Shown: positions 1-6,551, numbered from the stretch's first letter. The stretch: DNA of 64,000 nt from Kiloniella litopenaei (GCF_000982415.1 NZ_LANI01000001.1:124001-188000); one strand, 5' to 3'. The notes: generated from the sequence alone by a model not told the origin. Made by a program: numbers and translations.

Positions 1-315
1 GCGCAACAGATATACAAAAAATGTAATTATTTATCGAGTGAAGAGATAAAAAAACTCAACACTGATATCTCAATAATTACTAAAGGTCTGGAGTTGGAAA
101 TACCACGTTCAACAATCTACCTTGTACTAAAAAGAGATGTCGAAACGTCACAATATTTAGAAGAAATAACTTCAATAGTTACCAATAGAGTTAAGACCCA
201 TCACTCTTACAAATGCTCAAGAAAAATGCTTGAAACTCTCAATATTGCGAAAGAAAATGCGAGAGTGTGGAGCCAAGTTATATTAAAAACATGGAATAAC
301 GATACAGTCGGTTAA
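1..315 (+). CDS. Partial hypothetical protein, C-terminal part
   Basis: An open frame enters from the left edge without a stop and ends at the TAA at 313-315, giving about 104 residues. The visible protein is rich in Lys, Ile, Asn and Thr and is predicted to be mostly helical. I do not recognise a domain. Its base composition is clearly more AT-rich than the terminase genes that follow, which suggests different ancestry, perhaps prophage cargo. It converges on the terminase large-subunit gene with a gap of only 7 bases. The true start lies outside the window. Confidence 0.45.
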   Translation, partial: AQQIYKKCNYLSSEEIKKLNTDISIITKGLELEIPRSTIYLVLKRDVETSQYLEEITSIVTNRVKTHHSYKCSRKMLETLNIAKENARVWSQVILKTWNNDTVG

Positions 316-322
316 CCCTCCC

Positions 323-1798
323 TCATCCCCCCGGCTCATAGTCCGAGATAGCGACCTCCATATCGCCGTAATAATCCTCTGACCACTTCACGATACCCTC
401 GGCAAAGGTAAGCGCCAATGCGTCTGCCACGTCCGGCGAATGCAATCCTCGCTTTTTCATATCTTCCTTGCGCTCTAGCTGTAGCCTGTTCTTGGCGTCA
501 AAGCCGTATTCAATAGCAGTAAGGTCCGTTTCAAGTTCCTGATCATCAGCGGGGATATCACCGCCCTTGAGCCAGTCGCGCATCTTGCCCCACATTTCGG
601 CGCGCTTGTTCATATAGGTCTTCTGGTCCTGCGCTCTGGCCCCGGCGTTTACATCGATGCAGTCGTGACCCAGTTGCTTCAGGCGATCGACAACACCGCC
701 CCCAACACCCACACCGTCAACCAGTACACCATCAGGATTCCATTTACGGATTATCTCGATCACATGACCGACCAGTGTCATGGTATCTATGCGATACTTG
801 GTAATCTCCAGCACCTTTCGGCCCTGCCGCACCAAAATCACCGATTGATCGTCCCCAAAACGGGCCACATCAACACCGATGACAATGGTATCCCCCGGGT
901 GTGCCGAAAGCTGTCGTTTTTGGGCCTCTTCAACAATGGTACCACTGATAAACTGCGTCGATCCGGCCCGAGGGAACACCCCCCGGACACGGACGCGAAC
1001 AAAATCGCTGTCTTCGCCGTAATCCTCCACCCATTGCTGCATCAGCTTCTGGTTGGTTCCCCTGACCGAACGGCTGTCAATCTGGCGGGTTTTCCAGCGA
1101 TGGCGCAAACGGTTGAAGCACTCAAAAAAACGCCCGGAATTTCGTGTCGGGTTGCCAAAGACAAAGCGCATGGGTTCGCCATCGGTCAGACCGCCGTCAG
1201 AAACCTCCCAGATCTTATCGGGCACGGCGCTGGCTTCATCAAAGAGATAAAAGGGCGTCGAATTTGCAGCATGCAATCCGGCAAAGCTCTCGGAATTTTC
1301 CTCGCGACAGGTCTGCGCATCACACCGCCAGCTTTCAGGGTGGCGTTTATGGACCAGCGCCATATTCCCCTTGCTGGCACTATAGCTAAACCAATGTCCG
1401 GTCAGACAGCGTTTGTGCCATTTCCCCAACTCGGCCCAGGTTTTCGTGCGCAGCTGATCACTGGTATTCGATGTCACGACCCCCTTGGCAAAGGGCCGCG
1501 TTGACATGATAAAGAGGATAAGCCACGCCGACATTGCCGACTTGCCAATACCGTGGCCGGATGCCGTTGCCATATCCATGGGGGCAACGGGGTGCAGCCC
1601 GTCAAACCCGCGCTCTGTGATCTGTGCGCCCAGATCTTCCAGATAGGCCAACTGCCAGTCGCGTGGACCTTTGAAATCGGCCAACTCACCCTGCCCCCAG
1701 TCAAAGGCCCACAGCACAAACCCCAGCGGATCCGCATAGAACTTTGCACAGTCCTCGGCCAGATCCAGATCAACCCCGTGGGTCATCAGATACCTCAA
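323..1798 (-). CDS. Phage terminase large subunit
   Basis: ATP-driven DNA-packaging motor and endonuclease of a tailed phage. The 491-residue protein has an N-terminal ATPase with a Walker A-like SGHGIGKSA (about residues 79-88) and a Walker B region YLFDEAS (about 184-190). The C-terminal RNase H-like nuclease shows acidic clusters in GVDVARFGDD (about 302-312), VDGVGVGGG (about 360) and SPDVADALAL (about 454). The length is normal for TerL. It lies downstream of the small subunit on the same strand, the usual order. No portal or capsid gene is in the window; these would be expected to the left, but the next ORF there is on the opposite strand, so the prophage may be rearranged or decayed. 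The gene itself shows no damage. Confidence 0.92.
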   Translation of the reverse strand: MRYLMTHGVDLDLAEDCAKFYADPLGFVLWAFDWGQGELADFKGPRDWQLAYLEDLGAQITERGFDGLHPVAPMDMATASGHGIGKSAMSAWLILFIMSTRPFAKGVVTSNTSDQLRTKTWAELGKWHKRCLTGHWFSYSASKGNMALVHKRHPESWRCDAQTCREENSESFAGLHAANSTPFYLFDEASAVPDKIWEVSDGGLTDGEPMRFVFGNPTRNSGRFFECFNRLRHRWKTRQIDSRSVRGTNQKLMQQWVEDYGEDSDFVRVRVRGVFPRAGSTQFISGTIVEEAQKRQLSAHPGDTIVIGVDVARFGDDQSVILVRQGRKVLEITKYRIDTMTLVGHVIEIIRKWNPDGVLVDGVGVGGGVVDRLKQLGHDCIDVNAGARAQDQKTYMNKRAEMWGKMRDWLKGGDIPADDQELETDLTAIEYGFDAKNRLQLERKEDMKKRGLHSPDVADALALTFAEGIVKWSEDYYGDMEVAISDYEPGG

Positions 1799-1853
1799 TT
1801 AATCAGATAGGAAAAATGGTGACAAGAAAATAGATGGGTTTAATTAAACTCAC

Positions 1854-2324
1854 TCATTTGTCCGGTTTGTCTTCCGGTTTATATTTCAGGCGCTTACGCC
1901 CCCGCATCAGGCGATCAACCAGCTCATTTTCAATCGACATTTCAACCTTTTCCTTAAAGGCCTGAACCGATACATGACGCCCGATAATCTCCAGCGCCTT
2001 TCCCGCGCCCGTGTGCTGGAATTTGTATTCCCCGTCGGCATCCGCAACCGGGCTGCGTTGCATACAGCGTTCAAAAAGCTCGACGGCCCCCTTTAGCACA
2101 TAATCCGCATCAATTTGCAATCGTTGGGATCGGTCGGCTTTTGCTTGCTCAATGGCTTCCTGGACCAAAGGATTGTTGAGCGTTCGACTGGCGCTCTGCT
2201 TAATCGAATTTGGGCTATATCCCGCCCGAAGTGCCGCCTGCGTGGCATTAAAATCAATCAGATACTCTTCGACAAACCTCTTTTGCCGTTCGGTCAATTG
2301 CTGCTTTAAATCCGGATCACTCAT
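1854..2324 (-). CDS. Phage terminase small subunit
   Basis: DNA-recognition subunit of the terminase, which binds the packaging site and recruits TerL. The N-terminal region (residues about 10-60) has the Terminase_2 signature: LTERQKRFVEEYL, then NATQAALRAGYS and a helix-turn-helix followed by TLNNPLVQEAIE. The C-terminal part is charged and helical, fitting an oligomerisation and TerL-binding region. The length of 156 residues is typical. The start is well supported by GGGAGG five bases before the ATG. It is followed on the same strand by TerL after 55 bases. Confidence 0.9.
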   Translation of the reverse strand: MSDPDLKQQLTERQKRFVEEYLIDFNATQAALRAGYSPNSIKQSASRTLNNPLVQEAIEQAKADRSQRLQIDADYVLKGAVELFERCMQRSPVADADGEYKFQHTGAGKALEIIGRHVSVQAFKEKVEMSIENELVDRLMRGRKRLKYKPEDKPDK

Positions 2325-2552: not shown

Positions 2553-5500
2553 GTGACGGTAAAGGGTTTCAGATTGTCCACCATTATTATTACGGAAAAA
2601 ACCTCGCAAAAGCGCGATGTTCAAGCGGCAATCGGCAGTAATTACGGACAAATCCTTCCAGCAGAAGGTCATTTGTTAAGCCTGCAGGAACCCCAACAGA
2701 TCCAGAGCAGTTGGGGGCGCTGGTCCTTTGACCTGCTCAAGCCCGATGATTTCTATCCGACCTGTCCTGCACCGGACGCCTCCCCATCGGCAAAAAACAA
2801 GCTGGAAGCCATCGCAAAGGCGCTTAAAACGGCCGAACGTGTCATCATCGCCACCGACTGTGACCGCGAGGGACAGCTTATTGGCGAAGAGATTTTGCGG
2901 CACTATAAATTCGCCGGGCAAGTACAGCGCGCCATGTTCACGGCCCAGGATGAAAAGACCCTGCGACAGGCGTTCGAAAATCTGGAACCCAATGATAAAT
3001 ATTATAATCTGGGCCAAGCCGCCGTTGTCAGGCAGCAGGCTGATCAGGTTTATAATCTATCCCTGACCCGTGCCGCTACTGTGGCCCTTAAACAGCCCGG
3101 GCAGTACGGCGCAATCGGCATTGGGCGGGTAAAAACCCCGACCATGGCAATCGTCTGTATGCGCGAGCTGGAAATTCTGGATTTTACGCCTCAGGATTAT
3201 TACCACCTTGTCGCCACCGCCAAAGCCGAAAGCGGCGAACTGGATCTTCGTCATGCCCCGAAAGAGCGAATTCTTGACCTGGAAAGAGCTGAAAAGCTGC
3301 GCGCTGCTGTCGAAGGATACGAAGGTCCGCTTAAAACAGAAAAGAAGATCAAGAAAACCAAACCACCGCGTCTTCTTGATTTGCCTGAATTACAAAAGAT
3401 ATGCGCGCGCCGCTGGGGGTGGAGTGCCGACAAAACACTCAATATTGCCCAAGAGCTATACGATGGCGAAGGTAAGAAAATCCAGACCTACCCCCGTGCT
3501 GAATCCCGCTACCTCGCAGAAAACCAGATCGAAGACATCGGTGAAATTATTCAGGGGCTCACCAAGCTCCAGCAATATCAGGGCATTGATCTATCCTCAC
3601 CGGAAGTACGCAAGGGAAAGTCCGGCCATTTTTCTGATGCCGGATTGAAGGGCGTATCTCACCACGCGATTGTTCCCAACAAAAACACGATGGACCGTGT
3701 AGAGGTAATTTATGCCCGCCTGACCCAGGATGAACAACGTATGTTCGATCTGGTTGCCAGTTCCTATCTTGCGATCCTCATGCCCGATTACGTCTATGAA
3801 TCAACCGTTGTTTCCATGGATGTTCCCATTACCCTTGCCGATGCAGAAACGGGCGACGAAAAAGAGAGCATCCTCGACTTCAAAGTGACGGGTAATATCC
3901 CCAAGGAACAGGGGTGGAAAGCCGTCTATACCGATGTCATGGAAAAGAAGGAAGATCACGCGGGTGAGCTTCCCCCAATTCAGGACGGTGACATTGCCGT
4001 GCTGTCCCCCGTGACAACAGATACAAAAAAAACCAAAGCCCCTCCGCGCTATAACGAGGGAACCTTGATCGATGCCATGCAAAATGCCTGGCGCTTTGTT
4101 GAAAACAAGGATCTGAAAGAACGCCTGAAAGAAGCCAAAGGCATCGGCACACCGGCGACACGCGCTGCTGTGATCACGGGCCTTAAGCTCCAAAACTTTC
4201 TTGCCCAGAGCGGAAAACACATCGTCCCCACCGATGCGGGACTGACCTTGTTCAAAACCTTGAAAACAGCTGCACCTGAGCTGGTTGATCCCGGCGTTAC
4301 CGCCATGTGGGAAATGAACCTTGATGACGTTCTAGAGGGCAAACAGACCGCCCGACAGGTCTGGGACGATATCGGCAATGACACCGCACGTCTTATCGGC
4401 ATCCTCAAAACCAATGCCGCAACAGCGCCGAAAATCAACACAGGCGTCGCCATGCCTAAAAATGCTGGCAAGGGCAAGCCCACCGATAAAATGAAAGAAA
4501 CGGCAAAGTCCGTTGCGCAAAACAAGGGCCTCAAACTTCCCAAAGGCTATACATCCGATTTTAATATCTGCCGCGAATTTCTCGATGAACATCTCGGGGG
4601 CAAAGGACCAAGCCCGGAAAAGGTACTTGCGAACCTTGAAAAGCAACTCTCTGACGGAATGATCAAGGGTCTTGGCGCCAAAGCCGCAAAGCAACTGGTT
4701 GAAAGCTTTGGCCCTGATGCCCTGAAAACAATCGTTACAGCCCCCGAAAAGCTTGCAAGTGAAACATCCCTGCCAAAGGGGAAGATCAAGCTTCTGGAAA
4801 AATGGTCCGAAGACAGAAAAGCGCTTTCAGAAATTGCAGCGTTCCTGCACAACCACAGTGTTGATCCTGCCCGATCTTACCGCCTTTTCGAAACCTTTGG
4901 AAACGACACCATCTCAAAGCTAAAGGACAATCCCTATTGTATTGTCCGAAATGCGAAATCTATTCCTTTTGATGTTCCCGATTGTATAGCGCATAAACTT
5001 GGTCGGGAAGCGCACTGTCTAGAACGGGCAGGTGCTGCGCTCTATTACGCCCTTTTACAAGCCAATGATGCTCGGGAAAAAAACACTCTTCTGGCTTTAC
5101 TGAATAAACGTCTGGAAATCCCCACTGATATTCTAGAACGAGCACTCACAAAAGAAATCGATGACAAACACATACATAGCTACAAAGAGAAAGACACGAC
5201 AGAAAGCCCTCAAGATTTCTTGATCCTGAAGCAGGACTGGCAGGCCAATACAAAAATCAAAAAACGCCTCATCGCATTATCAGAAGGCATTGTCCCCTGG
5301 GGGGAAATTGATGCGGAAAAAGCAATAGAGTGGGTCATCAGCCGCGATAAACTTGATTTGTCCGACCATCAAAAAGGGGCTGTTACCAGACTGCTGAAAA
5401 ACAAATTTACCGTACTCGAAGGCGTTCCCGGGACGGGCAAAGAAGACATCGTCAAAGCCTTTGCCGGGATTGTTACAGCTAAAAACATATCAACATCAAT

Positions 5501-6551
5501 CGCTGTTGCTTCCTCGACTGAAACAAAAAAAGCCAGCTCAGCACTGGATATCGAAATCGTTACGGTTACCAAGATTCTTGAATATAATTCCAAGTCAAAA
5601 ACATTTAAGCGTACCGCCAGAAAGCAATTGGATTGTCAGCTTTTGATAGTTGATCAGGCTGATTTACTGGACCGAACAACCTTTCTTGCTTTGCTGGATG
5701 CCCTGCCAGAAAGTGCTGGACTGGTCTTAATACGAAATATCACCTCAATCCCTTTTCCCGGTTCTGGTCGTTTGTCTGATAGTTTGCTTGATATTGGCAA
5801 TGACAACCATCTTTTGCTCAATCAACTCTTACCCAGGGGCCAAAACAATAAGCTGGCGGGAAATCTGCTTGGTTTAAACAGCAATCAGGGTTTTGATTAT
5901 ACCTCTGACACGCAAAGTCCCGGTACATTCTATTTTGTTGAATCAGAAAACGAACAGGATACCCAGCGTAAACTGGCCGAAGTCATAAAGAACCGTTTAC
6001 CCAAAAGCTTTAAATACAATGCCATAAAAGATGTTCAGGTTATCAGTATGGCAAAGGGCATGCTCGGTCCCGTAAACTTGACTCAGCAATTGCAAAGCTT
6101 GCTTAACGACACACATACAGGTTTAACCCTGCAAAAATTTGGTACCCGATACAAAACAGGTGACAAGGTCATCTTGATGCAAAATGATCCTGACCGGGAT
6201 TTAATCACAGGTGACATCGGCTTTATCAAAGACATAACAAGGGATGAAATACCTCAACCTGGTGACAGTACATCCTTTATGGATGATGGACGGATCAGCA
6301 TCGAATTCAGCGGCAAAAACCATGATTTTTCATTCGGTGAATTGGACTGTTTGAATCTTGGCTACGCCCTTCCTCCAAACAAAAACCGGGATAATCTCTC
6401 TCCCGCGGCGGTTATCTTGCTTCCATTAACAGACACAGACGACAGCACGACAAACCCGGGAAATCTGGATAATTCTATCTTTAGAAACAATCTATTAAAA
6501 AGCTTATCCTCTGCCAGTGAACGTGTTGTTCTGATCGGCAGAAAGCCCTAA
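2553..6551 (+). CDS. Type IA topoisomerase fused to a degenerate RecD2-like helicase
   Basis: Residues 1 to about 640 are a TopB-like type IA topoisomerase: Toprim glutamate in ITEKTSQKRD (about 14), DxDxE in DCDREGQ (about 101), IGRVKTPT (about 190), and the active-site Tyr313 in TYPRAESRYL. Residues about 685-850 carry the helix-hairpin-helix array and linker of RecD2. Residues about 945-1332 follow the RecD2 helicase order, but the motifs are changed: Walker A is GVPGTGKED (GKT lost), Walker B is LIVDQAD (DE lost), motif III has RNITSI for GDxxQL, the FRQ motif is LPRGQ, and the final HKSQGSE-type motif reads PPNKNRDN. Non-catalytic blocks such as FYFVES and TGDKVILMQND persist. So a working topoisomerase with a non-hydrolysing helicase scaffold is likely. 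The start could be GTG 2553 or, better aligned with an AAAGGG site, TTG 2574. Confidence 0.88.
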   Translation: MTVKGFRLSTIIITEKTSQKRDVQAAIGSNYGQILPAEGHLLSLQEPQQIQSSWGRWSFDLLKPDDFYPTCPAPDASPSAKNKLEAIAKALKTAERVIIATDCDREGQLIGEEILRHYKFAGQVQRAMFTAQDEKTLRQAFENLEPNDKYYNLGQAAVVRQQADQVYNLSLTRAATVALKQPGQYGAIGIGRVKTPTMAIVCMRELEILDFTPQDYYHLVATAKAESGELDLRHAPKERILDLERAEKLRAAVEGYEGPLKTEKKIKKTKPPRLLDLPELQKICARRWGWSADKTLNIAQELYDGEGKKIQTYPRAESRYLAENQIEDIGEIIQGLTKLQQYQGIDLSSPEVRKGKSGHFSDAGLKGVSHHAIVPNKNTMDRVEVIYARLTQDEQRMFDLVASSYLAILMPDYVYESTVVSMDVPITLADAETGDEKESILDFKVTGNIPKEQGWKAVYTDVMEKKEDHAGELPPIQDGDIAVLSPVTTDTKKTKAPPRYNEGTLIDAMQNAWRFVENKDLKERLKEAKGIGTPATRAAVITGLKLQNFLAQSGKHIVPTDAGLTLFKTLKTAAPELVDPGVTAMWEMNLDDVLEGKQTARQVWDDIGNDTARLIGILKTNAATAPKINTGVAMPKNAGKGKPTDKMKETAKSVAQNKGLKLPKGYTSDFNICREFLDEHLGGKGPSPEKVLANLEKQLSDGMIKGLGAKAAKQLVESFGPDALKTIVTAPEKLASETSLPKGKIKLLEKWSEDRKALSEIAAFLHNHSVDPARSYRLFETFGNDTISKLKDNPYCIVRNAKSIPFDVPDCIAHKLGREAHCLERAGAALYYALLQANDAREKNTLLALLNKRLEIPTDILERALTKEIDDKHIHSYKEKDTTESPQDFLILKQDWQANTKIKKRLIALSEGIVPWGEIDAEKAIEWVISRDKLDLSDHQKGAVTRLLKNKFTVLEGVPGTGKEDIVKAFAGIVTAKNISTSIAVASSTETKKASSALDIEIVTVTKILEYNSKSKTFKRTARKQLDCQLLIVDQADLLDRTTFLALLDALPESAGLVLIRNITSIPFPGSGRLSDSLLDIGNDNHLLLNQLLPRGQNNKLAGNLLGLNSNQGFDYTSDTQSPGTFYFVESENEQDTQRKLAEVIKNRLPKSFKYNAIKDVQVISMAKGMLGPVNLTQQLQSLLNDTHTGLTLQKFGTRYKTGDKVILMQNDPDRDLITGDIGFIKDITRDEIPQPGDSTSFMDDGRISIEFSGKNHDFSFGELDCLNLGYALPPNKNRDNLSPAAVILLPLTDTDDSTTNPGNLDNSIFRNNLLKSLSSASERVVLIGRKP

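Follow-up and report, generated by a model that had tools for sequence, protein, structure and literature searches.

A TopB–RecD2 fusion with a degenerate helicase motor in Kiloniella litopenaei

Kiloniella litopenaei carries a gene in which a TopB-like type IA topoisomerase and a RecD2-like helicase with degenerate motor motifs are fused in one intact reading frame. The gene lies on contig 1 of the 4.3-Mb genome, within the 64,000-nucleotide stretch of DNA analysed here (the window); it starts with GTG and codes for a protein of 1332 amino acids, residues 1–683 constituting the topoisomerase half and residues from about 693 to 1332 the RecD2-like half. The product is probably a topoisomerase III in which the former RecD2 has become a non-motor C-terminal domain, a platform for docking on DNA or on a partner protein. 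No publication on a topoisomerase–RecD2 fusion was found in the open-access PMC literature. The same host has a second, ordinary type I topoisomerase frame of 895 aa and a separate RecD2-like helicase of 739 aa with intact motifs (L050 1414–3630, minus strand, in G000:C13). The gene of the latter adjoins one resembling a restriction–modification methylase.

The architecture, originally predicted from the sequence alone, was confirmed by Pfam and NCBIfam profile searches (Table 1), the topB profile reaching up to about residue 658 and the RecD2 profile covering residues 693–1273 against model positions 73–643. The chance that two separate working proteins, or a product of a frameshift, a mis-join or pseudogene formation, are being taken for a fusion is very slight, since nothing beyond the unusual architecture speaks for it, and the same single frame recurs in independently assembled genomes from Kiloniella, from Sneathiella, and from Aestuariispira. 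An assembly artefact or pseudogene was ruled out by this intact frame together with purifying selection, dN/dS being well below 1.

Table 1. Position of the fusion gene and of its domains and motifs in the window
Feature	Position	Strand	Basis or remark
Fusion gene, TopB-like topoisomerase and RecD2-like pseudo-helicase, 1332 aa	2553..6551	+	Frame intact in 12 full-length homologues
Toprim domain, residues 10–119, with E15, D102, D104, E106	2580..2909	+	Pfam PF01751; residues invariant
Type IA topoisomerase core, residues 149–603	2997..4361	+	Pfam PF01131 E 3.9e-87; E. coli Topo III structures E 2.9e-67
Catalytic Tyr313 within TYPRAES	3489..3491	+	Invariant; aligns with TYPRSD of E. coli Topo III
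Topoisomerase C-terminal motif KPTDKM...FLDEHLGG, residues 643–683; fusion joint immediately after	4479..4601	+	Azospirillum plasmid topoisomerase ends at the same motif, FLDQHAK
First helix-hairpin-helix, residues 699–720, kept	4647..4712	+	Alignment of fusions with active RecD2
RecD2 helical/HHH domain, residues 756–838, hairpin GIG lost	4818..5066	+	Pfam PF14490 (HHH_RecD2)
RecA-like domain 1 of the pseudo-helicase, residues 930–1070	5340..5762	+	Pfam AAA_19 (940–1060); model and Foldseek
Degenerate Walker A GVPGTGKE, residues 957–964	5421..5444	+	Alignment with stand-alone RecD2s
Degenerate Walker B LLIVDQAD, residues 1030–1037	5640..5663	+	Alignment with stand-alone RecD2s
Degenerate motif III IRNITSIPFPGSG, residues 1060–1072	5730..5768	+	Alignment with stand-alone RecD2s
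Degenerate motif IV LNQLLPR vs LTEVFRQ, residues 1089–1095	5817..5837	+	Alignment with stand-alone RecD2s
SH3-like domain, residues 1178–1232, fairly well preserved	6084..6248	+	Pfam PF18335 (SH3_13), match under the Pfam cut-off
Degenerate motif V YALPPNKNRDNLSPAAVI, residues 1271–1288	6363..6416	+	Alignment with stand-alone RecD2s
Degenerate motif VI RNNLLKSLSSASERVVLIG, residues 1311–1329	6483..6539	+	Alignment with stand-alone RecD2s

The topoisomerase half is apparently complete and working. It displays the features of type IA membership, i.e. the Toprim and core domains, the Toprim acids, and the active-site tyrosine, and the catalytic residues E15, D102, D104, E106, and Y313, already reported as kept in the original prediction, are invariant in all 11 aligned fusions, among which this half is 76–96% identical. 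Its score of 405.3 bits lies below the NCBIfam topB cut-off of 515.75 bits, which is a threshold for assigning names and no functional criterion, and topB-type models are still its best matches. The closest stand-alone relatives are plasmid enzymes of alphaproteobacteria (Azospirillum, Sulfitobacter, and Bradyrhizobium) with about 51–53% identity. The Azospirillum enzyme stops at FLDQHAK and the fusion joint lies just behind FLDEHLGG, so the RecD2 part appears to have been appended to a complete topoisomerase. Plasmid p2 of Paracoccus sp. TOH, whose record is given as circular, has an annotated protelomerase family gene (L113 7735–8904) near its topB relative.

The RecD2-like half is predicted to keep the RecD2 domain order and the SF1B fold. 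Its profile matches the RecD2 structure 3e1s with an E-value of 2.5e-38, and AlphaFold models of this half from two distant members, the window copy and a Sneathiella copy, both built from 11-sequence alignments, reach a pLDDT of 84 and 82, respectively. The best solved matches of both models found by Foldseek are the RecD2 structures 3gp8, 3gpl, and 3e1s, with top-match E-values of 6.5e-27 and 1.9e-31 and TM-scores by target of up to 0.74 and 0.75. The RecD2 N-terminal domain, comprising about 70–100 aa ahead of the first helix-hairpin-helix (HhH), is absent, the profile match beginning only at model position 73, and the score of 289 bits does not reach the RecD2 NCBIfam cut-off of 500 bits. 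Of the HhH array, taken at first to be kept as a whole, the first motif is intact, while every Kiloniella copy has a degenerate second motif, and SIPF replaces GIGF at the third hairpin.

On alignment to 27 stand-alone RecD2s, seven helicase motifs (I, Ia, II, III, IV, V, and VI) proved degenerate, rather than the five originally listed, and the losses recur in all 12 full-length fusions and in none of the 27 relatives. In the window copy Walker A reads GVPGTGKED, with the lysine still there, in place of GGPGVGKTT of the intact RecD2s, Walker B reads VDQAD in place of VDETS, and further along the chain IRNITS stands for VGDIDQ, LNQLLPR for LTEVFRQ (motif IV), and PPNKNRDN for TIHKSQGSE; motifs Ia and VI (LSSAS for VTRGK) are gone as well. 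Of the motor residues, Glu of Walker B, Arg of motif IV, and Gly of motif V are each found in none of the 12 full-length fusions and in all 27 stand-alone alphaproteobacterial RecD2s. These 27 come from the same class and were selected for intact Walker A and Walker B patterns; every candidate locus had both, so that none was excluded. Surviving residues are scattered (GKT in Kiloniella sp. EL199, the Walker A lysine in the window copy, GDADQ in 46_93_T64), and a complete set of working motor residues is present in none of the 12. A search for a homologue with both GKT and DE intact yielded none, the GKT of Kiloniella sp. EL199 being accompanied by DR, and no active homologue was found in the same position in the host's own order, class, and phylum or in the orders of the other carriers. 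ATP hydrolysis, translocation, and 5'–3' unwinding by the RecD2-like half are therefore predicted to be absent, and the silencing of the helicase, as first suggested for the window copy, extends to every full-length homologue, with the SF1B fold retained in the models.

A nucleotide-binding switch, in which ATP is bound without being hydrolysed and its binding changes the shape of the domain, is improbable: the GKE or GKD of the window copy and its nearest relatives, with the Walker A lysine kept and accompanied by DQ (a Glu-to-Gln exchange in Walker B), does resemble a hydrolysis-dead state, but the lysine is gone in all four full-length members from outside Kiloniella and the Walker B aspartate in six of the 12, and therefore nucleotide binding is not the shared function.

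The dead half is under purifying selection and not in free decay. In within-genus pairs with usable dS, which is near saturation in most pairs, dN/dS (Nei–Gojobori) is 0.02–0.06 for the topoisomerase half and 0.08–0.28 for the dead half (0.08–0.14 in Kiloniella pairs without K. laminariae and 0.28 with it); close pairs of active RecD2 give 0.06–0.09. The dN of the dead half is 4–24 times, mostly 4–12 times, that of the topoisomerase half, and its identity between Kiloniella and the other members is about 25–37%. The copies of K. laminariae (L038 and L042) are 1480–1504 aa long owing to long Ala/Pro/Ser/Thr-rich insertions in the pseudo-helicase, within its SH3/RecA2 part.

The distribution of the constraint has also shifted. 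The best-conserved parts of active RecD2 are the motor blocks, whereas in the fusions conservation is highest in the first HhH and in the SH3-like part and lowest in the motor blocks; the respective conservation values for HhH1, SH3, RecA1, and the motif IV region are 0.44, 0.40, 0.30, and 0.15 in the fusions and 0.50, 0.53, 0.58, and 0.51 in active RecD2, the fusion counts being non-independent since eight of the 12 full-length copies come from one genus. Active RecD2 has 147 conserved columns, of which the fusions retain 31 and have lost 69; at 14 columns conservation is restricted to the fusions, including R841, K843, R853, K1024, N1147, K1226, and K1255, several of them basic. The net charge of the RecD2-like half is not clearly positive and its composition gives no evident sign of DNA binding. 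The conservation pattern agrees with an altered function rather than with none, even if part of it could be due simply to the need for a stable fold.

Accordingly, the selection for a non-hydrolysing scaffold put forward originally stands as regards purifying selection, while the word scaffold is an interpretation to which weak constraint or slow decay is a real rival. According to this rival, which is rather unlikely on balance, the fused RecD2 lost its function early and is a slowly decaying relic, kept only because its truncation or misfolding would harm the topoisomerase. The topoisomerase is complete alone, judging by its stand-alone relatives, so truncation should have been easy, and the frame is nonetheless intact in 12 of 12 full-length copies from three orders. 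The high dN of the dead half, the K. laminariae insertions, and the failure of Pfam to detect the AAA domain any longer in genome G228 agree with decay, but dN/dS in several pairs is near that of active RecD2. Likewise, purifying selection may merely prevent misfolding of the tail, yet the constraint has moved to HhH and SH3, and basic residues not conserved in active RecD2 have become conserved.

Thirteen fusions were found in marine bacteria, 12 of them full length. They occur in eight of nine Kiloniella genomes (the ninth being partial), in four genomes of the Sneathiella order (in one as two fragments), and in Aestuariispira insulae, and nowhere else among roughly 850 searched genomes, including 385 from the class and 399 from the phylum. 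In the trees of both halves the fusions form one clade (SH-aLRT 100) with matching main branching, and therefore one fusion event is enough; the patchy occurrence across three orders is compatible with horizontal transfer as well as with repeated loss. The whole fusion was found in no plasmid or phage record, and the one plasmid match covering both halves, from Aneurinibacillus, was rejected as it contains separate genes. The two matches in IMG/VR, one identical to the window gene (100%) and the other related to it at 83%, lie at contig ends in predicted proviruses, in keeping with their derivation from Kiloniella chromosomes.

A phage-like region found throughout the genus Kiloniella (window 323–2324, minus strand, and G000:C1:92000–126600, L125 and L126), whose terminase genes lie back to back with the fusion gene, comprises genes for the large and small terminase subunits, a head–tail connector (PF12236), a major head protein, a protease, and tail fibre proteins. 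The terminase is 82–95% identical and occupies the same site beside the fusion gene in all eight adequately complete Kiloniella genomes, with a dN/dS of 0.02–0.04, and the connector is 84–97% identical in seven of them. The region is a fixed element, possibly a domesticated prophage or one resembling a gene-transfer agent. At its edge, a 73-aa ORF (window 94–315, plus strand) looks by eye like a transposase fragment. The flanks examined in the carriers outside Kiloniella lack the phage-like region, and therefore this context is inessential to the fusion.

As to its likely history, a plasmid-type topB ending in FLDxH would have been joined to a recD2 without its N-terminal domain, with motor decay coming after the fusion and the unit now being patchy in three orders. 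An origin from an adjacent topB and recD2 operon is suggested by a single case showing that the two genes can be neighbours: in genome G141 (L101 3952–8940) a topB of 788 aa, closely related to the plasmid-type topB, a gene for a 130-aa protein without a Pfam match, and an intact recD2 of 760 aa lie on the same strand downstream of an integrase-like ORF, the trio possibly being a mobile cassette. It resembles the fusion in that relatives of both halves lie together, and differs in that the genes are separate and the RecD2 is intact. It is the only alphaproteobacterial topB–recD2 neighbour pair seen, recD2 being absent near the plasmid topB relatives in the neighbourhoods examined.

In the probable role as a topoisomerase III with a docking platform, the topoisomerase half would use Tyr313 and Mg bound by Toprim to cut one strand, and would pass a strand or a duplex, while the pseudo-RecD2, with its predicted SF1B fold, first HhH, and SH3-like part kept and with no expected ATP hydrolysis or translocation, would tether it to forks, junctions, or ssDNA, or else to a partner protein. 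Topoisomerase activity, an absent ATPase, and binding of DNA or a partner are what may be inferred for the protein. Such docking can be likened to the role of other type IA C-terminal domains, which are highly variable and contact nucleic acids or partner proteins (PMC10969213). A more tentative and rather doubtful proposal, made by analogy, is that the dead RecD2 acts as a single-strand guide: its old ssDNA track, with ATP no longer as the driving force, would hold or scan a strand and pass it on to the gate of the topoisomerase, in the way that RecC/AddB serve a nuclease. If true, an inactivated helicase would have become a DNA guide independently, here in a topoisomerase. Topoisomerase III enzymes commonly pair with a separate active helicase, and the fusion offers a natural test of whether the topoisomerase needs helicase unwinding or only a platform shaped for DNA or a partner.

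The fusion shares with TopB and plasmid-type topoisomerase III the whole N-terminal half, the catalytic residues, and the C-terminal FLDxH motif, and differs from them by about 650 additional C-terminal residues derived from RecD2. With RecD2 itself (SF1B, TIGR01448; D. radiodurans 3GP8/3E1S) it has in common the domain order, the predicted fold, and the HHH_RecD2 and SH3 parts, but all its motor motifs are degenerate, the N-terminal domain is missing, and the remainder is joined to a topoisomerase. The parallel with reverse gyrase, drawn in the original prediction, turned out to be superficial, as nothing is shared beyond the joining of a helicase fold to a type IA topoisomerase in a single polypeptide. 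The helicase part of reverse gyrase is N-terminal, whereas that of the fusion is C-terminal, belongs to SF1B, and is dead, leaving no ATPase to drive positive supercoiling; the reverse gyrase helicase is an SF2 enzyme whose ATP hydrolysis is required for that reaction (PMC8185306, PMC10969213). RecC and AddB, with inactivated SF1 helicase domains serving as non-motor DNA-handling parts (PMC4824097), are the closer analogues. They resemble the fusion in having an SF1 fold without motor motifs retained inside a larger enzyme, a likeness in the manner of working and not a homologous membership. The helicase domains of RecC and AddB are UvrD-like, in contrast to the RecD2-like one described here, the fusion is of independent origin, their partner is a nuclease–helicase and not a topoisomerase, and sequence scanning is known for the RecC/AddB side only. 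The fusion would be a second natural and independent case, beside RecC/AddB, of an SF1 motor converted to a non-motor role, and its intact stand-alone relatives are available to compare it with.
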